Origin: Gemmatimonadota bacterium
GTDB taxonomy: Bacteria > Gemmatimonadota > Gemmatimonadetes > Gemmatimonadales > GWC2-71-9
Length of the DNA stretch: 56,734 nt
Assembly: GCA_003221035.1 (NCBI GenBank)
Contig: QHUB01000027.1
Location: 1 to 56,734, forward strand
Reading direction: 5' to 3'
This document shows, one piece after another, positions 36,074 through 48,814 of this stretch. The position numbers and the translations under genes were made by a program. Numbering within the stretch: position 1 is the stretch's first letter; every line of letters starts with the position of its first letter. The notes below the pieces were generated by a model. That model worked only from the letters and a program-made list of their open reading frames with translations, was not told where the DNA came from and ran no database searches.

Positions 36074-37450
36074 TTACAGTCCGACCCCATAGGACAACGC
36101 AAACAGCAGGTTCGCCGTCTTGACGGAGAGTCGCGTCTCCGTCTGTTGGCCGCCCGCGGTGTTCCCGAGCGACTGGCGCGTGCCGGTTCCGAACGAGTAG
36201 CCGAAGCCGAGCGAGCCGGACAGCCGCGAGCCGGCGAGCGAGACGCCGGCGGTGAAGCGCGACAAGTTCACTTGCCGAAACAACGATTGCGACTGATCGC
36301 CGACCGGTGAGCCATCTGTCGAGTACCCGGCGTGGACGCGGAACTTGGCCGACAGCGGATAATTGGCGCCCACGGCGACGTTCGTGACGGCGCGAGCGCT
36401 GTTCATCGTCGTATCGAACGGGGGCGTCGTGGTGACCGGGGCGCCGCCGCTATCCTGCACCGTCAGCCGTCCGGCCACCGCGCTCGCGTACATGACGTAG
36501 GGATCGATGGCCGCATGGTAACGGACGTCGATCTCGATCTCTGCTCCCCGGGCGAACTGGAATGAGCCGCCGCCTGCCAGCTCGAGCGGCAGCTTGTAGT
36601 CCATCGTCACATTCTCGTCCGCGAAGATGAAATCGCTCAGGCTGTCCGCCGACCAGCGCGAGCTGTGCGACTTGAAGAGGCTGCTGCCGAGCAGCCGCGC
36701 CGTTGGCGCGACGACCATGGCCCCGAGCGTGACTCGGGGCGTGAGATCCCATTGCGCACCGGCCGACAAGCGCAAACCCCAGGTCTCGCCATCGGCGGAG
36801 AAGCTGCGCAGCGCCACGGTGGCATCGGTCGGAGTGGTGACACGGTCCGAGATGTCCTGCGATTGCAATATCGACGTGATGGCGACGCCCACTCCGGCGC
36901 CCAGGCGCAGGCGCCCGCTTTCGACACCGCCCGGTGTAAAGGAGACCGCCAGGTTGGGGATCATGACGGCGAGGTTGACGTTGGTCGCGTACCCGAGGAG
37001 CTCCTGGCCTCCCTGCAGCGATGCCGCCAGATCGAGCCCGCTGGGCTGCCACACGATGGGACTGGTGATCGAGAAGCCCAATCGCACCTTGTTGGAGTGC
37101 AACACGTCGTTGCCGATGACGACGCCCAGCAGTGTGCCGATGCTGCTGATGCGGGAACGGCCCGCACTCGTGCCGAGTCCTTCGAGCGAGAGGCTCGTGC
37201 CCTCGTAGGCGGTCGCGCTGGCGTTCAACGAGGTCTTGAGGCTCTTTCCCAGGCCGGCCGGATTGTACCAGTTCGCCGCCGCGTCGTTCGTGCGCGCGAG
37301 GTACGCGCCGGCCTCGATCCCTTCACGCTGGCCGACGGGCACGCGGTCATAATTCGGCAGGATGAGATTCGGCGGCACGCTGACGGCTTGGGCGGCAAGC
37401 GCCGCCGGCGCGGCCAGTGCCAGGCAGAGACAGGCGTATGTGGTCTTCAT
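36074..37450 (-). CDS. FadL/OMPP1-like outer membrane transporter
   Basis: 458 residues; signal peptide ends near ALAAQ. The N-terminal YLARTNDAAANWYNPAGLGK is the hatch-domain signature of the FadL/TodX family, which takes up long-chain fatty acids or other hydrophobic compounds. About fourteen alternating strands follow, and the C-terminus ALSYGVGL is barrel-like. The upstream region has a CATTGCCCCTAGG segment and long G-runs (37499-37514) that could influence its expression or that of the divergent DUF481 gene. Confidence 0.82.
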   Translation of the reverse strand: MKTTYACLCLALAAPAALAAQAVSVPPNLILPNYDRVPVGQREGIEAGAYLARTNDAAANWYNPAGLGKSLKTSLNASATAYEGTSLSLEGLGTSAGRSRISSIGTLLGVVIGNDVLHSNKVRLGFSITSPIVWQPSGLDLAASLQGGQELLGYATNVNLAVMIPNLAVSFTPGGVESGRLRLGAGVGVAITSILQSQDISDRVTTPTDATVALRSFSADGETWGLRLSAGAQWDLTPRVTLGAMVVAPTARLLGSSLFKSHSSRWSADSLSDFIFADENVTMDYKLPLELAGGGSFQFARGAEIEIDVRYHAAIDPYVMYASAVAGRLTVQDSGGAPVTTTPPFDTTMNSARAVTNVAVGANYPLSAKFRVHAGYSTDGSPVGDQSQSLFRQVNLSRFTAGVSLAGSRLSGSLGFGYSFGTGTRQSLGNTAGGQQTETRLSVKTANLLFALSYGVGL

Positions 37451-39773: not shown

Positions 39774-40730
39774 CTAAAACGTGGTCAGGCGGCCATCGCG
39801 CAGGCGCCCCACGAGCCACTCGAGCCGCCGCCGCACGCCATCGATCTCCGGCTCCGTGAGGCCGAGCTGGAGCACATCGCCTTTGCGACGCACACCCCGA
39901 GACGGATCGAGATTGGCGGTAGGCTCGACCACGACGTATTGCCCCGCCCGCCGTTCGAATTGCGCCATCACACCCAGCGCGTGGGTCAGGTCCTCGGACC
40001 GAAGCCGCTCCAGTCGCGTCGCGGTGGCTCTGCCGATCCGTTTGACGCGCATCGAGCTCCACTCCGTCCCGCGGTTGCTCGCGGGACTGTCAAATGTCAC
40101 GCCGTTGTCGACCGAGAACATTCGCGGGTGGAGCGTATCCGACGAGATCAGGATGTTGCCGGCATTGGCGTCGCGTTGCCGGACCAGGTACGTGAAGACG
40201 TTGAGATCGCCGAGATGACGGGCGTAAGCGGTATCGCGCGCCGCGCGCTTCGTATCGAAGACGCCCTTGGAGGTAACGTCGAGCGTCCAGTACTGCAGAA
40301 TCAGGAGCACCGACGACGCGTCCGTGAAGGTCGGCTCGGTCGGGGTCGCGCTGATCTTGTGGTAATCGTCCACGGACACCATGCGTGCGACCGTCGGCGG
40401 GACGACATAGTCCGGCTCATTGAGAAAAAGCTTCTGGAGTGCATACGCGGCGATCTCGTACCGGGGCTCGTTGTTGAAGGCCGCGCCGCCCTGCGGCGCC
40501 TTCGCGAGCTTCACGTCCATGTAGCTCGAGTCGGCGAAATGCAGCAGCCCATGGCTGGTCCGATCGCCTTCGAATCTCGAGCCCGCCTGCTGTACCACAT
40601 CGAACGGTTGACCGCGCAGTCGTGCTTCGATCACCGGCACGGGTGCCGTGATCAGCCCGTCCTGAGCGGCGAGTAGTCCGGGAGCAAGCGTGAGCGCGAC
40701 CACGACCACATATCGGGGGAGCGCTGCCAT
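39774..40730 (-). CDS. Exported protein with atypical kinase-like motifs
   Basis: 318 residues with a signal peptide (MAALPRYVVVVALTLAPGLL, cleavage near AAQ). The body has the order of elements of a kinase fold. There is a lysine strand MDVKLAK (Lys74/77), and an acidic helix RYEIAAYALQKLF with Glu92. A catalytic-loop-like RDANAGNIL (186-194) carries Asp187, Asn189 and Asn192. A metal-binding SVDNGVTF (206-213) carries Asp208, like the DNG motif of FAM20-type secretory kinases. This is motif inspection only; no family hit is claimed. The start overlaps the stop of the nucleotide-transporter-like gene (ATGA), so the two are co-translated. It should act in the periplasm or outside the cell. 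Confidence 0.5.
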   Translation of the reverse strand: MAALPRYVVVVALTLAPGLLAAQDGLITAPVPVIEARLRGQPFDVVQQAGSRFEGDRTSHGLLHFADSSYMDVKLAKAPQGGAAFNNEPRYEIAAYALQKLFLNEPDYVVPPTVARMVSVDDYHKISATPTEPTFTDASSVLLILQYWTLDVTSKGVFDTKRAARDTAYARHLGDLNVFTYLVRQRDANAGNILISSDTLHPRMFSVDNGVTFDSPASNRGTEWSSMRVKRIGRATATRLERLRSEDLTHALGVMAQFERRAGQYVVVEPTANLDPSRGVRRKGDVLQLGLTEPEIDGVRRRLEWLVGRLRDGRLTTF

Positions 40731-43168
40731 CAGACCTCCAGTAGTGAATGCGCCGGCGCGCGCGCGAGCAGCGTGTCCACGCGATGCGCCATGCCGCGGA
40801 GCAGGGCGACGGCGAGTTCCGGGGAGTCGACCAGCAAGTCGAGCAGATCCGAGCGCGAGATCCTGAGCAAGGTGGCGGGACCGGTCACCGTTGCCGTGAA
40901 CATCGCGGGCCGTTCGCCGATCAGACCGAGCGCGCCGAACCCATCACCGCTCTTCGCGATCAGCGGTGGCATCCCGGGCATCGCCAGTGAGACTTCTCCT
41001 CGCGCCACGACGTGCACGGCGTTGGGCACCGCGTCCTCCCGCACGAGCACGGTACCGGCAGCGACGTCTGTTTCTTCGGCAATGCCCGCCAGCAGCGCCA
41101 AGTGATCGCTGCGGGCCTCGCGGAACACGTCGACGCGCTGCAGCAGGAAGACCTTATCGATGTCGTCCATGTGGTCGCTCGGGATGTTGTGGGGTTCGCG
41201 ATCGGCCGCGGTGGCGCAGCGCCGGACCCAGGGGTCCGCGTCCGTCGTCAATGCGGCGATCGCCTGTGCGGTCGCATCGTTCCGCGCCCGCGGTGTCGGG
41301 GAATCTTGCGAGGACGGGTTCTCGAGAACGGGTTCGAGCCGCTCGGAGAGACTGCGCGGCAGGCCCTCGTCCAGGAGATCGCGCGCCGCCTCCTGGCGCT
41401 GCGTCGTCTCACTCACGAGCGCCCGGTAACAACCGTCCATCACCGGCGGCGGATACAGCAACGCGAGATCCCGAAACACGTTCTCGCGCCGGCGCTGCCA
41501 CGCATCCTCGACGGCGCGCCGGAGCAGGGCGCCGCCAGGCAGGGCCGCACCCGCGGTACGATAGCGCGCCGCGGCGTCGAGATCGTGGTCGAGCGCCGCG
41601 GCCGCCTCGCTCGTGCCAATGGGGATCTGCGGCGCTCGGCGGTGCAGTCGCGTGAGGGCGCTGAGCGCGCCACCGCGCACGCGCGGGTTGTGCTCCGGGG
41701 CGGCGACGCACGCGAGCAGGGCATTCAGCGCGCGCGCATCGGCGATGCGTCCCAGCGCGCGGGCCGCGGAGCGGCGCGCCGAGTCGCTCGTGGCCTGGTC
41801 AGCCAGCGCCGCGGCGAGGTCGGGAATCCGATCAGGATCGACCGCGGGCGTCGCTCCCGCATCGCGACGTGCCAGGAGATCGAGCGCAAATGCCGCCTGA
41901 TCCGGCTCGCTACCCGAGAGTCCCCCCCGGAGCTCGGCGAGCAAGACGTCCAGTGTTGTGTCCCGCGTCGCGATGGCATGGGCCAGAGACCGGACGTAGC
42001 CACGCCGCAGTGCCCACGCCAGCGCGAGCCAGCCAACCGACAAGGCGGCCGCGGTCCACCCGAGCGCGGACGGACGGGCCACCGCGAGAATCAGGAAAAT
42101 CGCGCCGGCCGACAACGCCTTCGCCAGGCTGTCCACGCCGACGTCGATGATGGGCTTCGCGCGCGCCTTGATCGCCGGAGGGACGGGCATGTACACGATC
42201 TCACGGCCGGTGCGTTCCGCCGAATTCTGCAGCGTCGACTGTGTGGCCTTTGCCGTCGCGACCGCGGCCAGCCCGCCCCACAGCGCGACGACGACGTTCG
42301 TCGCGAGCATCGCGGCCGGCAGCATGAACAACGCCGCGCCGACGCCCCAGCGCGTGAGCAGCGGCTGCAGAATCGCCGAGGCCACCAGCGGCAACCATTG
42401 CGTGGCCGCGTTGAACTTGCCCTGGAATGCACTGATGCGTTCAGGGTCCACCAACGCCGCGGCGGTTCCCCGGTTGAACTGATAGTCCACGAGCTGCTTC
42501 ACCAGGACGGTCAGCACCACGCTCGCGGCGATGAAGCGGAGCTGACGGTCCGCGAAGATCGTGCGCCATCCCGCCCGGGGCTCCGGTGCACGACGACCAG
42601 TCGCGGACGCGTCGTCATGCGGCTGTGCCGGAATGACCATGGGGAGCGCCAGCGCGAACGCACTCGTGAGCGCCGCTCCGACGAGGAGCAGGCTTGGGAC
42701 GCCCAGCGATGTGACGAGGAAGCCGGTGATCACACCGCCGAGCGATGCACCGATCGATCCGCCGGCGATGATGACTGGGTATGCAGTCTTGGCGGTCCGA
42801 CCGCTGAGTAAGCCTTGCGTGCTGAGAAAGAATTGCGATACGAGAACCGCGGCAAAGAGATCGTGCCAGGCGTAAAACAGGATTCCGAACGCCGGGCCTC
42901 CCGGATAGAGCACCCGAAACAGGACGAGGTTGCTGACGAAAAAAAGCGCGAGGGCCGTGGTGAGCCAACGCGGCGGAACGCGAGCGGCGAGTCGACCGAA
43001 CGGCACGAGGAACAGCACGACGCCCGCGCTGGCGAGGTAGGCCTTGTAGAACCCGGCGGCACCCAGCCCTTTCAGCGCGAGCGCATTGCGGATCGGCTGC
43101 AGGAGTCCGATCGCGCATACCAGGAGCATGTACAGCATCGCGAGCAGCAGCAGACGGCCGCGTGGCAT
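40730..43168 (-). CDS. Nucleotide-transporter-like (Npt/Tlc) membrane protein with HEAT repeats and cyclic nucleotide-binding domain
   Basis: 812 residues in three parts. Residues about 1-390 form some ten to twelve membrane helices resembling the ATP/ADP translocase (Npt1/Npt2) branch: LLQPIRNALALKGLG near the N-terminus and TGREIVYMPVPPAIKARAKP between late helices. Residues about 400-640 are HEAT-like alpha repeats. Residues about 665-795 form a cNMP-binding domain (LQRVDVFREARSDHLALLAG, AGTVLVREDAVPNAVHVVARG, FGALGLIGERPAMFTATVTG). The FGALGLIGERP cassette resembles the phosphate-binding turn, but an Arg-Thr/Ala pair is not evident. The cargo may be nucleotides; an MFS-like alternative exists. 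It is coupled to the kinase-like gene. Confidence 0.78.
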   Translation of the reverse strand: MPRGRLLLLAMLYMLLVCAIGLLQPIRNALALKGLGAAGFYKAYLASAGVVLFLVPFGRLAARVPPRWLTTALALFFVSNLVLFRVLYPGGPAFGILFYAWHDLFAAVLVSQFFLSTQGLLSGRTAKTAYPVIIAGGSIGASLGGVITGFLVTSLGVPSLLLVGAALTSAFALALPMVIPAQPHDDASATGRRAPEPRAGWRTIFADRQLRFIAASVVLTVLVKQLVDYQFNRGTAAALVDPERISAFQGKFNAATQWLPLVASAILQPLLTRWGVGAALFMLPAAMLATNVVVALWGGLAAVATAKATQSTLQNSAERTGREIVYMPVPPAIKARAKPIIDVGVDSLAKALSAGAIFLILAVARPSALGWTAAALSVGWLALAWALRRGYVRSLAHAIATRDTTLDVLLAELRGGLSGSEPDQAAFALDLLARRDAGATPAVDPDRIPDLAAALADQATSDSARRSAARALGRIADARALNALLACVAAPEHNPRVRGGALSALTRLHRRAPQIPIGTSEAAAALDHDLDAAARYRTAGAALPGGALLRRAVEDAWQRRRENVFRDLALLYPPPVMDGCYRALVSETTQRQEAARDLLDEGLPRSLSERLEPVLENPSSQDSPTPRARNDATAQAIAALTTDADPWVRRCATAADREPHNIPSDHMDDIDKVFLLQRVDVFREARSDHLALLAGIAEETDVAAGTVLVREDAVPNAVHVVARGEVSLAMPGMPPLIAKSGDGFGALGLIGERPAMFTATVTGPATLLRISRSDLLDLLVDSPELAVALLRGMAHRVDTLLARAPAHSLLEV

Positions 43169-43205: not shown

Positions 43206-43233
43206 TGACCCTTGGGGCAGCCCTTAGGGACAA
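43206..43233. repeat. Two overlapping copies of the 16-bp motif (copy c)
   Basis: TGACCCTTGGGGCAGC (43206-43221) and CAGCCCTTAGGGACAA (43218-43233) overlap in the gap between the transporter-like (minus, 43168) and PI-PLC-like (plus) genes. Both retain CC-N4-GG with flanks close to the consensus. Confidence 0.4.
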
Positions 43234-43268
43234 TGCCGTCCGGGAGCCAGAAGCCCGATTCTCTCGCT

Positions 43269-45413
43269 ATGGCCACCCTTCGCTCTGTGAAGATGTCGAG
43301 TGCCCTGTTGATCGTGGGCGCCGCGTCTGTCTGGATTGCGCTGATCGTGGGCGGCGCCGCCCGAGCTATCGTCCGCCCCGACCCGTTTGCCCGCCGCGTC
43401 GCCGCCACATTGTCCGACCCGCGGGTGTCGTCGTACATCGCGGCCAGGGTTACCGACGCTATCGTCGCCCAGCGGCCCAACCTCGTCAGCGTGCGCTCGG
43501 TTCTTCAGCCGGCGGTGAACGGCGTCGTCGCGTCGGCGCCGTTCCGCGCGGTCGTGCGTACCTCCGCCCGCGCAGCGCACCGCGCACTGTTCGAGTCCGC
43601 GGCCAAGAACGCGCTCCTGTCGCTACCTGATGTCTCGGTGCTCGTGCGTGGCGCGCTCCAGCACGTCAACCCGGCCATCGCCGCGAAGATTCCGCCCGGG
43701 ATCGAAGCGAAGCTGGCCTCACCCGAGGCCGAGCAGCGGTTCACGCGGTTCATCGGCGCGTTTGCTCTGGTCGGCAAGGTGCTCTGGGCTGCGTGGGGCC
43801 TGTTACTCCTCGGCGTTGCGTCCATTGTCGCTTCGATTTGGGTCGCCCCGGAACGGCAGAACGCGCTCGTCCGAGCGGGCGGTAGCTTGTTCGCGGTCGC
43901 GCTGGCACTGCTGGCGGTTCTTCCTGCGGGCCGCATTGTCGCGGCTGCGCTCACCCAGGGTCCTGAGCTGCGCGGTGTGATCCACGGCCTGTGGTCGGCG
44001 TTCTTCCTGCCGATCAAGCCACTCGCGTTGATCGCCGGTTGCGCGGGCGTCGTGCTCGCGGCCGCGGGTGGGACGATGCTCGAAGCGGTGGACCCCTATG
44101 CGCGGTTCAAGGCGCTCTGGCGCTGGCTCACCGAGCCGCTCCATCCGACCGCGCAGGTCGGCCGGGCGATCCTCGTGCTGGCGGCGGGTGTCTACGCCGT
44201 TTCGTATCCGACACGCGCGGCGACAGCGGTCGTCGCGATCGTCGGCTTGGTGCTCGTCTATACCGGATTGCGCGAGGTGTTCCGCGTGGTGTTGGCGCGC
44301 ACCGGTGTTGCGACCGGCGCACGCGCGGCGGCGACGCCGCAGACCAACGTTTACGCCTGGCGGATGGCGGCGGCTGTCGCCGTCGTGCTCGCGGTCGTGC
44401 TGGGTGGCACGGCGTTGCTCGTGTTCCGCGCGCCGGCCGCGACGTTGGAAGAAGCGGGTGCCGTCGTCGCGTGCAATGGGTCGCCCACGCTGTGCAACCG
44501 GCGCCTCGACCAGGTCGTCTTCGCCGGCGCGCACAACGCGATGTCGAATGCCGAGATTCCGGGCTGGTTGTTCCCGCACCAGAACCATGCGTTCCCGGGG
44601 CAGCTCGAGGATGGCGTGCGCGCACTCCTGATCGACGTGCACTACGGCGTTCCCGCCGAGGAGCACGTCATCACCGATTTCAGCCGCGAGGGCGGTACGT
44701 CGATCGATAAGATCAAGGGCCCCCTCGGTCCTGAAGCCACCGAGGCGGCGGTCCGCATCCGGAACCGGTTCCTCGGTCACGAGACCGGCAAGTCAGCGCT
44801 GTACTTCTGTCACGGGTTCTGCGAGCTGGGCGCCTATCCGGTCCTGCCCGCGCTGGAGGGCATCCGCGACTGGATGCTCGCAAACCCTGGTGAGGTCGTC
44901 ATCATCGTCGTCGAGGACTACGTGGCGCCGCAGGACCTCGCCGTCGCCTTCCAGGACGCGGGCCTGTTGAACCTGATCTACACGGGGCCAGCCACGAAGC
45001 CGTTCCCGACGTTGCGCCAACTGATCGATTGGGATCAGCGCCTGGTCTTGTTCCTCGAGTCCGGAAAACCGGGCGTGCCCTGGCTCAGGCCCGCTTGGGA
45101 GTCGATGCAGGAGACGCCGTATACGTTCCATCAGCCGGCCGACTTCTCGTGCAAGCCCAATCGCGGCGGTGCCACCGCGCCGTTTTTCCAGATCAACAAC
45201 TGGATCGAGACCACGCCCGCGCCCAGGCCCTCGAATGCGCAGATCGTGAACGCGTATGACGCCCTGCTCGCGCGGGCGCGCGAGTGCCGCTCGGAGCGCA
45301 ATCACCTCCCGAATATTCTGGCGGTGGACTTCTACGACGTCGGCGATGTGTTCCGCGTGGTGCGGACATTGAACGGACTCGATGAGGGAGGGACGATCGC
45401 GCGTGGCCGCTGA
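43269..45413 (+). CDS. Membrane protein with PI-PLC X-like domain
   Basis: 714 residues from the ATG at 43269. The N-terminal half (to about 400) has several membrane helices and an extracytoplasmic segment. The C-terminal half resembles the PI-specific phospholipase C X-domain found in bacteria: VVFAGAHNAMSN with the first catalytic His, VRALLIDVHYG, and LYFCHGFCELGA with the second. An ATG at 43233 in the same frame is an alternative start but would overlap the motif region. Phosphodiesterase action on a lipid or GPI-like substrate is inferred from the family. The PP2C gene overlaps its 3' end by 11 bases. Confidence 0.75.
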   Translation: MATLRSVKMSSALLIVGAASVWIALIVGGAARAIVRPDPFARRVAATLSDPRVSSYIAARVTDAIVAQRPNLVSVRSVLQPAVNGVVASAPFRAVVRTSARAAHRALFESAAKNALLSLPDVSVLVRGALQHVNPAIAAKIPPGIEAKLASPEAEQRFTRFIGAFALVGKVLWAAWGLLLLGVASIVASIWVAPERQNALVRAGGSLFAVALALLAVLPAGRIVAAALTQGPELRGVIHGLWSAFFLPIKPLALIAGCAGVVLAAAGGTMLEAVDPYARFKALWRWLTEPLHPTAQVGRAILVLAAGVYAVSYPTRAATAVVAIVGLVLVYTGLREVFRVVLARTGVATGARAAATPQTNVYAWRMAAAVAVVLAVVLGGTALLVFRAPAATLEEAGAVVACNGSPTLCNRRLDQVVFAGAHNAMSNAEIPGWLFPHQNHAFPGQLEDGVRALLIDVHYGVPAEEHVITDFSREGGTSIDKIKGPLGPEATEAAVRIRNRFLGHETGKSALYFCHGFCELGAYPVLPALEGIRDWMLANPGEVVIIVVEDYVAPQDLAVAFQDAGLLNLIYTGPATKPFPTLRQLIDWDQRLVLFLESGKPGVPWLRPAWESMQETPYTFHQPADFSCKPNRGGATAPFFQINNWIETTPAPRPSNAQIVNAYDALLARARECRSERNHLPNILAVDFYDVGDVFRVVRTLNGLDEGGTIARGR

Positions 45414-46296
45414 GCAGCAGACTCAGGGCGTCGTGACGATGGAGTTGAAACCGCGGGATGAAGATCTCGAGTTGTTCGGATTGACGCACACTGGTCTGGT
45501 GCGGCCCGACAATCAGGACCACTTCCTCATCGGCACGCTCCATCGTGAGCTCGTGGTGCACGGCACGAGCTTGCCGGCACCGGACGAGCTGCCGGTCCGC
45601 GGGGAGCGCTTCGCCACCTTTGCGGTGGTGGCAGATGGCGTCGGCGGTGTCGTCGGCGGAGCGGCCGCGAGTCGTCGCGCGGTGGAAACGATCGCGCAGT
45701 ACGTGCAGTCCACCCTGCGCTGCTTTGCCGCGGCCAACCCTGCGCACGAACCGGCGTTCATTGACGCGCTGCGGGACGCCGCACTCGAAGCCGACGCGGC
45801 CGTGCGGGCCCTCGGAAATGAGCAGCGGGAATACGGACCCGCCACGACCCTGACGCTGGCGATTGGGGTGTGGCCTCGGGCCTACGTGCTCCAGGTTGGC
45901 GACAGCCGCTGTTACGTCCACGGCGAGGGCAAACTGCGCTGCCTGACCCGCGATCAGACCGTGGCGCAGGATTTGGTCGACAGCGGCAAGCTGACTGCGG
46001 AAGAGGCAGCGCGGTCGCCGTTCAAGAATACCTTGGTGAGCGCGATCGGCGGCCACCATGCGGCGCCCGTCGTGACGGCCGTGGACCAGCAGCACGACTC
46101 GGTGTTCTTGCTCTGTTCAGACGGGCTCACCAAACACGTCGGCGACGACGAGCTCGCCGAGTGCCTCGGCAATCTCCGCTCCGCGGAGCAGGCCTGTCAG
46201 AGCCTCCTGCGGCAGGCGCTCGAGCGCGGCGGCACGGACAACATCACGATCGTCGTCGGTCGCGCACGGCGCGCGCCCGCGACCCACCCTCAGTAA
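45403..46296 (+). CDS. PP2C-type serine/threonine phosphatase
   Basis: 297 residues. Metal-binding motifs are present: RPDNQDHFLI, VVADGVGG, GDSRCYV, LLCSDGLT and GGTDNITIVV, matching motifs of PP2C/Stp phosphatases. It can reverse phosphorylation by Ser/Thr kinases such as the one at 3235-5523. I chose the GTG at 45403 because GAGGGAGGGA (45384-45393) lies nine bases upstream; ATG at 45382 or 45439 are alternatives. It overlaps the PI-PLC-like gene at its start and the convergent PPK2 gene by seven bases at its end. Confidence 0.9.
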   Translation: MAAEQQTQGVVTMELKPRDEDLELFGLTHTGLVRPDNQDHFLIGTLHRELVVHGTSLPAPDELPVRGERFATFAVVADGVGGVVGGAAASRRAVETIAQYVQSTLRCFAAANPAHEPAFIDALRDAALEADAAVRALGNEQREYGPATTLTLAIGVWPRAYVLQVGDSRCYVHGEGKLRCLTRDQTVAQDLVDSGKLTAEEAARSPFKNTLVSAIGGHHAAPVVTAVDQQHDSVFLLCSDGLTKHVGDDELAECLGNLRSAEQACQSLLRQALERGGTDNITIVVGRARRAPATHPQ

Positions 46297-47090
46297 CGCT
46301 CCTTGACGTACGTGTAGTCGTACTTGGGCTCGCGATAGCCGTGAGCCTTCTGCCGTTTCGGAAGCTTGATCTTGTCCCGTGGCGCCTTCTGGTACGGTAT
46401 CGAGTCGAGGAGGTGCGCGATGATGTTGAGTCGCGCGCGCCGCTTGTCGTCCGAGCGGGCGACATACCAGGGCGCGTGCGGCGTGTCGGTCTGCTCGAAC
46501 ATTTCGTCCCGCGCCCGGGAATAGTCGTACCATCGGCTGTAGGATTTGAGATCCATGGGCGAGAGCTTCCAGATCTTCCGCCCATCTTCGATCCGCGATT
46601 CGAGCCGACGAGTCTGTTCTTCCTCACTCACTTCGAGCCAATACTTGACGAGAATGACGCCGGAATCGACGATCGCCTTCTCGACCGCGGGAACCGCCTT
46701 CAAGAATCGTGTGACGTCCTCTTCGCTGCAAAATCCCATCACCCGCTCGACTCCGGCGCGGTTATACCAGCTCCGGTCGAAGATCACGACTTCACCAGCC
46801 GCAGGGAGCAGCGGGATGTAACGCTGGATGTACATCTGCGACTTCTCGCGCGCGGTCGGAGCGGGCAATGCCATGACGCGAAAGACTCTCGGGCTCACGC
46901 GCTCCGTGATGGCCTTGATCGTTCCACCTTTACCGGCGCCATCGCGGCCTTCGAAGACGATACACACCTTGAGCCCCTTGTATTTGACCCACTCCTGGAG
47001 CTTGACCAGCTCGATATGGAGCTGCTCGAGCTCTTGCTCGTACTCCTTGTTCTTGAGCTTTTCCTTCGAAGCGGCTCCGCCCTTCGCCAT
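46290..47090 (-). CDS. ppk2: Polyphosphate kinase 2
   Basis: 266 residues. PPK2 transfers phosphate between polyphosphate and nucleotides. Walker A GRDGAGKGG (48-56), the lid-associated APTAREKSQMYIQRY and the Walker B/acceptor block DRSWYNRAGVE (105-115) are diagnostic. SRWYDYSRARDEMF and APWYVARSDDKRRARLN complete the family pattern. I start at the ATG at 47090, with AGGAG upstream; a TTG two codons earlier is possible. The sequence looks like a class I single-domain enzyme; whether it prefers ADP or GDP cannot be read. It sits after the SulP gene with a two-base gap. Confidence 0.93.
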   Translation of the reverse strand: MAKGGAASKEKLKNKEYEQELEQLHIELVKLQEWVKYKGLKVCIVFEGRDGAGKGGTIKAITERVSPRVFRVMALPAPTAREKSQMYIQRYIPLLPAAGEVVIFDRSWYNRAGVERVMGFCSEEDVTRFLKAVPAVEKAIVDSGVILVKYWLEVSEEEQTRRLESRIEDGRKIWKLSPMDLKSYSRWYDYSRARDEMFEQTDTPHAPWYVARSDDKRRARLNIIAHLLDSIPYQKAPRDKIKLPKRQKAHGYREPKYDYTYVKERY

Positions 47091-47092
47091 CG

Positions 47093-48814
47093 TCAAGCTC
47101 CTCTCATCGCCAGAGCGTCTTCGCTCTTCGCATCGGTCGCGTTCGCGCCCGAGTACTTCTCCACCGCAATCTCCAGGTTGAAATGCATCCGCGCGCGCCC
47201 AAGCGTGTCCTGCAGCGAGGACCGCCGGATGACGTTCAGTACCGCCGGCGTGAGCCCGATCAGCCAGACGGGCAATCCACTTTCGGTAAACCGCCGCTCG
47301 GCGTCGATGAGCGCCTTGAGCGCGGTGTACTCGATGTCGAACACGCCGCTCAGATCGAGGGCCACAACCTTCGGCTGAAACTCATCGACCAGCGCGCGGA
47401 TCTTCTCGCCGAGGCGCGACGCGTTGAGGAAAAAGATCCGCCCCTCGACTCTCAGCAGCAGGAGGCCGGGAAAACTCTCATCCTCGGGATGTTCCTCCGT
47501 GCGCGGCCGGAACACGTTGGTGCCCCGCTTGCGGCCGAGCACAGCGACAGGCGGACTGGCCACCTGCTGCGCCAGCGCGAGCACGGACACGACGATGGCC
47601 ACCAGAATTCCCTGCAGCGTGCCGAGCAGCACGACACCGGCGAGGGCCACCAGCGCCCAGATGAACTCCATCCGTCGGACTTCGAGGATCGCCTTGAACC
47701 CTGCGAGGTGAATCAGTCCGACCGAGTACACAATGACCACGGCCGCGAGCGTGGCCTGCGGCATCAATCCCATGGGAGCGGCCAGGAACAATATCGTGAG
47801 CAGCGTCGCGCCGGCGGTGACGAGCCCGGCCAGCTGCGTGCGCGCGCCCGCGCGTCGGTTTACCGCGGTCTGCGATGTCCCGCCGCCCGACGGCATCGCG
47901 CCGAAAAAGGCGGCGCCGGAATTGGCGAGACCGGTCGCCAGTAATTCCAGGTTGGGCTGCAGCGGCGGCTCACCGCTCGCTGCAAAGGCGCGCCCCGCGG
48001 CGATCGTCTCGGTGAAGCTCATCAGCGCGATGCTCAGGGCGCCCGGCCAGAGAACGGCGAGCAGCGACAGATCCGGCGAGATCAACGACGGCATGCCGTG
48101 TGGGACCGTTCCCACCGTGGCGATTCCGTGCGCGTCCAGTTTGAAGAGGCTCATCGCCGCGATCCCCACCGCGACGGCGACCAGGGGGGCAGGCACGCGG
48201 GGAAGGGCGCGTTCGATGGCGACCAGTAGGAGAATCGTGAGAACGCCCACCGCCAGAGTTGCGAGATGTGTGCCGGGGATCGCGCCAATGGTCGCGGCGA
48301 GGTTGTGCAGGAAATTGCCTTTGGCGAAATGCACACCCAGCAGCTTGGGAATCTGATCCAGGACAATGACCAACCCGATCCCCGCTTTGAATCCGGTGAG
48401 CACGGGATCTGAGATGAAGTTGGCCACGAACCCCAGGCGCAGCGCGGACGCGACGATGAGGATGGCGCCGACGAGCAGACTCAGCGTCACCGTTGCGCGC
48501 AGGAGTGTGGCGGCGTCACCGCCGGGCGCGACTTGCCCCAGCTCGGCCGCCGTCAGAATCGCGATGGTCGTGGTCGTGCTGACGCTGAGCGGCCGAGAGG
48601 TGCCGAGCAGGGCGTAGATGACCGCCGGCACGAGCGCCGTGTAGAGGCCCACCTGAACCGGTAGCCCTGCGATCGTGGCGTAGGCCATCGCCTTGGGAAT
48701 GACGACGGCGGCGGCGGTCAATCCCGCGACCACATCCATCCGCAGCCACTCTTTCCGGTAGCCGCCGGCCCACGCTAACAGGGGGATTCTCGCGCGCGGT
48801 GTCTTTTTGATCAC
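47093..48814 (-). CDS. SulP-family anion transporter with STAS domain
   Basis: 573 residues. The N-terminal transport domain contains VVAGLTAAAVVIPKAMAYAT and GLYTALVPAVIYALLGTSRP, classic for SulP/SLC26. About 10-14 helices follow. A C-terminal STAS domain (about 455-565) reads VVALDLSGVFDIEYTALKAL. Substrate may be sulfate, bicarbonate or another anion; sequence alone does not decide. The GTG at 48814 begins at IKKTPRARIPLLAW just before the first conserved segment; an upstream extension to 48979 looks like non-coding sequence. PPK2 follows by two bases. Confidence 0.9.
   Translation of the reverse strand: MIKKTPRARIPLLAWAGGYRKEWLRMDVVAGLTAAAVVIPKAMAYATIAGLPVQVGLYTALVPAVIYALLGTSRPLSVSTTTTIAILTAAELGQVAPGGDAATLLRATVTLSLLVGAILIVASALRLGFVANFISDPVLTGFKAGIGLVIVLDQIPKLLGVHFAKGNFLHNLAATIGAIPGTHLATLAVGVLTILLLVAIERALPRVPAPLVAVAVGIAAMSLFKLDAHGIATVGTVPHGMPSLISPDLSLLAVLWPGALSIALMSFTETIAAGRAFAASGEPPLQPNLELLATGLANSGAAFFGAMPSGGGTSQTAVNRRAGARTQLAGLVTAGATLLTILFLAAPMGLMPQATLAAVVIVYSVGLIHLAGFKAILEVRRMEFIWALVALAGVVLLGTLQGILVAIVVSVLALAQQVASPPVAVLGRKRGTNVFRPRTEEHPEDESFPGLLLLRVEGRIFFLNASRLGEKIRALVDEFQPKVVALDLSGVFDIEYTALKALIDAERRFTESGLPVWLIGLTPAVLNVIRRSSLQDTLGRARMHFNLEIAVEKYSGANATDAKSEDALAMRGA

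Follow-up and report, generated by a model that had tools for sequence, protein, structure and literature searches.

FAM20C, a luminal protein kinase, has a DNG motif in place of DFG, and the secretory-pathway kinases of eukaryotes depend on Golgi nucleotide transporters. Since the periplasm is generally considered to be devoid of ATP, the fuel supply of exported bacterial kinases is a problem. Among bacterial proteins, CotH was described as a FAM20-related atypical Ser/Thr kinase for structural proteins (PMC12189002, PMC7821199), which acts on the Bacillus spore coat.

Nucleotide transporters of the NTT type that have been characterized in the cited literature serve uptake or exchange. In AtNTT1 of Arabidopsis, four charged residues, namely K155, E245, E385 and K527, matter for transport (PMC4256464, PMC3306366), and K527 is required for ATP binding (PMC3306366). 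Fusions of an NTT domain with HEAT repeats and a cyclic-nucleotide-binding domain (NTT-HEAT-cNBD proteins) occur broadly in bacteria and were reported as uncharacterized in a survey that took in two Gemmatimonadetes NTT sequences (Major et al. 2017, PMC5381601); a literature search retrieved no later functional paper on these proteins. Shewanella-like PPP phosphatases (Shelphs) were named after the Shewanella phosphatase (PMC535813).

The gene pair described here encodes an exported kinase-like protein, hereafter P, and an NTT-HEAT-cNBD protein. The preliminary description of the locus was based on the kinase motifs of P; the operon partner is the more telling part.

Organization of the gene pair

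Within the window, i.e., the whole stretch of 56,734 nucleotides analyzed, the following features were assigned to the gene pair:

40730..43168, minus strand: NTT-HEAT-cNBD protein, 812 amino acids (Pfam and AF2/Foldseek)
40728..40739, minus strand: GGAGGT ribosome site and TGATG stop/start overlap between the upstream gene and P (sequence)
39774..40730, minus strand: P, exported protein-kinase-like protein, 318 amino acids (ORF, 23-member alignment, AF2, Foldseek)
40665..40730, minus strand: predicted signal peptide of P, residues 1-22, with LLAA followed by QD (sequence reading and leaders of relatives)
40509..40511, minus strand: K74, beta3 lysine, expected to contact the ATP phosphates (20/23 members; strand 70-77 in the model)
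40455..40457, minus strand: E92, alphaC-type glutamate (invariant; helix 90-99 in the model)
40155..40172, minus strand: D187-N192, DANAGN, putative catalytic loop (conservation, model, Pfam PI3_PI4_kinase match)
40101..40109, minus strand: D208-G210, DNG, putative metal-binding motif in the DFG place (conservation; after strand 204-206)

The ORF of P, as read from the sequence, begins with ATG and encodes 318 amino acids. Its start codon shares nucleotides with the stop codon of the gene upstream (TGATG), and GGAGGT lies ahead, so that P was regarded as the downstream member of a coupled gene pair. By inspection, the N-terminus reads MAALPRYVVVVALTLAPGLLAAQ followed by D and represents a Sec-type signal peptide; the 22 aligned relatives likewise start with a hydrophobic leader, which ends at the corresponding AQ/GQ site. 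The signal peptide proposed beforehand was thus borne out at the sequence level, and P carries an export signal, which would place it, as judged from the leader, in an exported location comparable to the luminal one of FAM20C.

Further genes were noted in the neighborhood. The 733-aa membrane protein encoded at 43212-45413 (plus strand) has a C-terminal part (GAHNAMSNAE...) resembling, as read from its sequence, PI-PLC X domains of bacteria; neither a convincing Pfam match nor a PDB match was obtained for the protein. Its membership as a third component of the module was rejected, as the gene is present at the corresponding site of a related genome without P (G007) and was not found beside P elsewhere. 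Moreover, a PP2C phosphatase gene (45382-46296, plus strand) and a PPK2 polyphosphate kinase gene (46290-47096, minus strand) lie near the pair.

Predicted fold and active-site residues of P

The alignment of P comprised 23 homologues, forming 12 clusters at 80% identity with a mean pairwise identity of 55%. An AlphaFold2 model calculated from this alignment (pLDDT 84.5, pTM 0.84) showed kinase topology in the order beta1-beta2-beta3(K74)-alphaC(E92)-beta4-beta5-alphaD-alphaE-catalytic loop(D187)-beta7-beta8-D208, where the kinase names of the secondary-structure elements are our own reading of the model. In a Foldseek search against the PDB, zebrafish Fam20C (DrFam20C1, 5yh0) ranked first (E 2.4e-6) and PI4K-II alpha (4hne) second (4.9e-6), followed by ordinary protein kinases. 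All 15 matches at E<=0.001 were kinases, and among the best 50 PDB matches listed, every one has a kinase fold, so that the structural check of the presumed kinase fold turned out positive for the predicted model. TM-scores were modest (0.3-0.5), with about 13% identity. Searching a viral structure library with the same model likewise returned mostly kinases and similar proteins.

Invariant in all 23 members were R52, R90, E92, W148, D187, N189, G191, N192, D208 and N209. K74 is a lysine in 20/23 members; the remaining three have histidine at this position, each with a lysine two residues on (K76). These three (L018, L020, L023) also have VDND in place of VDNG, as if the lysine had shifted two residues along the strand. 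G210 is present in 20/23 members, and position 185 is histidine in 22/23, the window member alone having glutamine. The putative catalytic loop is located between helix 167-182 and strand 193-196 in the model, and the Pfam PI3_PI4_kinase match spans it. By analogy to known kinases, D187 would be the catalytic residue and N192 would bind metal. Accordingly, the residues expected for a kinase, i.e., the beta3 lysine (20/23), the alphaC glutamate, the catalytic aspartate with its asparagine and the metal aspartate, are kept in the P family.

All motifs named in the preliminary description, namely VKLAK (K74), E92, QRDANAGN (D187-N192) and VDNG (D208-G210), were recovered, and their conservation rules out chance occurrence; D187 and D208, whose conservation had been proposed as a check, are both invariant. 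Of the two lysines proposed there, K74 was retained, whereas K77 is not conserved in the 23-member alignment and was dropped as catalytic lysine.

Relationship of P to named families

The nearest named sequence profiles were PI3/PI4 kinases and SCO1664, with best E-values of about 1e-5 across the putative catalytic and metal loops. Pfam PI3_PI4_kinase was matched by 8/23 members (best 1.8e-5) and NCBIfam SCO1664 (TIGR03843) by 20/23 (best 1.3e-5); ABC1 matched weakly in four members in the profile scan. P differs from the two nearest families in its export signal and in scoring far below the curated cut-offs: the window protein reached 13.8-14.3 bits against PI3_PI4_kinase (PF00454; gathering cut-off 27.1) and 15.4 bits against the SCO1664 family (TIGR03843; cut-off 172.4). 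Searches against PDB sequences found nothing with P as a single sequence; with the P profile, a tyrosyl-tRNA synthetase and part of a PI3K were the only matches, at chance level (E 0.5-1), and were disregarded.

In the Pfam scan, Fam20C (PF06702) was not matched by any of the 23 members. Likewise, the Fam20C profile gave no match in the window genome up to E 10; since it was equally silent in 14 control genomes, it is the scan of the 23 members that carries weight. Assignment of P to the Fam20C family was therefore rejected, its sequence leaning to PI3/PI4 kinases and SCO1664. The earlier designation as FAM20-like holds for the predicted fold, with Fam20C as best match, and for the location; it fails as membership in the Fam20C family, from which P, a bacterial protein, also differs by the low identity over the fold alignment. 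CotH is, like P, bacterial and FAM20-related; no Pfam CotH match was detected among the P members scanned.

The window protein reached no curated cut-off, so that the P family has no name in the libraries scanned, in agreement with the initial impression that no named family could be recognized. Sequence comparison and structural modeling together support P as a member of an unnamed kinase-like family, which appears to be of the FAM20/PI4K-II kind by predicted fold and nearer to PI3/PI4 kinases and SCO1664 in sequence.

The upstream NTT-HEAT-cNBD protein

The 812-aa protein comprises an NTT/MFS-type membrane domain (residues ~1-416), helical repeats and a C-terminal cyclic-nucleotide-binding domain (~685-800). 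Pfam HEAT_2 and cNMP_binding scored over, and MFS and TLC under, their cut-offs. For TLC (PF03219; cut-off 21), 14.9 bits were obtained for the window protein, and 21.7, 40.1 and 41.6 bits for homologues. Furthermore, one relative matches AtNTT1 by sequence (1.4e-7), and an AF2 model of the window protein (pLDDT 74, pTM 0.47) had ADP/Pi- and ATP-bound AtNTT1 as best PDB matches (9j3m, 4.5e-9; 9j3l, 2.5e-8), with a TM-score of 0.67-0.69 by target. Based on the TLC scores of its relatives, the AtNTT1 sequence match and the predicted fold, the protein was assigned to the NTT-HEAT-cNBD proteins. It has the domain order of the surveyed fusions (PMC5381601) and, by its model, the AtNTT1 fold; different from these is the tie of one subgroup to an exported kinase-like protein and a phosphatase.

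Three of the transport residues, K155, E385 and K527, were compared, with AtNTT1 numbering worked out by hand from the alignment. At the K527 position, an invariant lysine (K350) was found. At the position of K155, which is linked to ADP binding, the window protein has lysine and several relatives have glutamine or arginine, and E385 is replaced by aspartate. Given these two differences, a substrate other than ATP/ADP may be exchanged.

Distribution of P and association with the NTT subgroup

The in-depth search for P covered the 298 genomes of this phylum. With a single sequence as query, full-length relatives were detected in 22/298 genomes, including the window genome, and a profile search yielded one further hit, a fragment located where a contig begins. 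P was missing from all 60 nearest genomes, among them nine of the window's genus. In the bacterial genome collection, the single-sequence search found one relative, in a Gemmatimonadales MAG, and no relatives were found on plasmids or viral contigs. In draft genomes, a missing gene does not prove absence; genes of relatives were called with a simple script, so that start sites there are approximate.

NTT-like or otherwise related proteins occur in 257/298 genomes, and the subgroup nearest to the window protein is found almost only together with P. This close subgroup, delimited like the close phosphatases by thresholds (160 and 270 bits) chosen after viewing gaps in the score lists, was present in 21/22 genomes with P vs. 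1/276 without P (Fisher 6e-30), and with P in 10/11 genera (1e-13), both values ignoring phylogeny. For this reason, the genus count, unlinked pairs and joint absence within a genus matter for the interpretation. The two genes lie within about 5 kb of each other in 19/22 genomes; in G188 and G206 both were kept though unlinked and far apart. P is missing from the other nine genomes of the window's genus, and the close NTT subgroup from all six of these that were tested. G007 has no such gene pair, and the two flanks of the window's locus lie near each other there. Between these flanks (L146, 8709-11030), in place of the pair, a homologue of the gene at window positions 36074-37450 was observed, indicating that this neighborhood was also rearranged.

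The exception is G147, with two P copies and neither the close NTT subgroup nor a close phosphatase. As a separate observation, its copies (L027, L030) lie near genes that, by reading, resemble Hanks-type Ser/Thr kinases.

Phosphatase and two-component genes in relatives

In many relatives, the NTT-HEAT-cNBD gene is followed by those of the response regulator, the histidine kinase, P and the phosphatase, with P or the phosphatase inverted in some clusters. The partner phosphatase is exported, scores over the Pfam Metallophos cut-off and has the PPP motifs GDxHG, GDxxDRG, GNHE and HGG. With these motifs and the Shewanella phosphatase as best PDB match (2.6e-37), it can be classed as a Shelph, differing from known ones by an extra N-terminal region, a signal peptide and the genetic link to the kinase-like gene. 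It adjoins P in 17 genomes, and P and a close phosphatase occur together in 19/22 genomes (5e-24, phylogeny ignored). Contig ends lie close to P and to the phosphatase in G171 and G299, where the two genes may therefore be adjacent as well. No close relative of the phosphatase or of the response regulator was found in the window genome, whose ten metallophosphatase matches include none close to the partner phosphatase. The smallest unit accordingly consists of the kinase-like protein and the NTT protein.

Proposed mechanism and alternative explanations

From the predicted fold, the export signal and the genetic association, we infer an extracytoplasmic phosphorylation module, including the activity and substrate class of P, the export of ATP (i.e., direction and substrate of transport) and the coupling of the parts. 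Our proposal, to which we assign even probability, is that P works after export as a catalytically competent member of the protein-kinase-like superfamily, of the FAM20/PI4K-II kind, and forms a functional unit with an NTT-type nucleotide exchanger. Tentative, and on balance rather doubtful, is the further model of a self-fuelled system, in which the exchanger brings ATP to the exported kinase in the periplasm, a PPP phosphatase opposes it in most relatives, and cyclic-nucleotide or two-component control is exerted. By the simplest mechanism for the proposed functional unit, the NTT protein would pass ATP or another nucleoside triphosphate outward and take the diphosphate back, with the exchange gated by the cNBD and a cyclic nucleotide or, in relatives, by the histidine kinase/response regulator pair. 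Outside the cytoplasmic membrane, P would use the nucleotide to phosphorylate a target, either an exported protein or a molecule of the envelope. The exported Shewanella-like PPP phosphatase would remove the phosphate in most relatives, and genomes without it may use another enzyme for the reset or none. Counted against this explanation were the variable K155 position, the replacement of E385 by aspartate, Q185 in the window P, the role of the characterized NTTs in uptake or exchange, the absence of a close phosphatase and response regulator from the window genome, and the lack of both the close NTT subgroup and a close phosphatase in G147.

An unlikely but serious alternative is that P is an exported kinase receiving ATP from lysis or secretion, while the NTT-HEAT-cNBD protein is a regulatory nucleotide or metabolite sensor or importer working with the histidine kinase and the regulator. 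The NTT gene lies beside these two genes in most relatives, even where P is distant, the substrate residue K155 is not conserved, and NTT-HEAT fusions are broadly distributed and uncharacterized (PMC5381601). However, the close NTT subgroup occurs almost only with P, and in the window the two genes overlap and are not separated by regulator genes.

Less probable still is the reading of P as an exported enzyme of the phosphoinositide-kinase type, which would phosphorylate lipids or small molecules and so modify lipids or glycans of the envelope instead of proteins. PI3_PI4_kinase is the best named sequence similarity of P, PI4K-II is the second-best fold match, and an action on lipids was suggested for Legionella kinases near FAM20/CotH (PMC9758233). 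The best fold match, however, is the protein kinase Fam20C, and P is usually accompanied by a PPP phosphatase whose closest match is a protein-tyrosine phosphatase.

Kinase-fold proteins with non-kinase activities are known; a review cites one of them, a polyglutamylating bacterial pseudokinase (PMC7948968). That P is an exported pseudokinase, or a kinase-fold enzyme of another reaction such as AMPylation or glutamylation, and serves as a nucleotide-binding regulator is nevertheless very improbable: the window protein deviates from the H185 consensus, but all residues expected for phosphotransfer (K74, E92, D187, N192, D208) are kept. Finally, an association arising merely from shared ancestry or a passenger gene pair, with an unrelated role of P, is highly improbable: 11/22 genomes belong to one genus (g73), but the link is seen in 10/11 genera, at unlinked loci and as joint presence/absence in the window's genus.

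Significance

An exported kinase-like family and a protein resembling an ATP/ADP translocator were found together almost always in this phylum, and the predicted structure of the partner in the window resembles plastid and parasite ATP/ADP transporters. If the proposed self-fuelled system is true, fuel, kinase, eraser and control would form a full phosphorylation circuit of the bacterial envelope, representing a bacterial counterpart of the eukaryotic secretory-pathway kinases. Moreover, the widespread and uncharacterized NTT-HEAT-cNBD fusions would be provided with a first, testable function.
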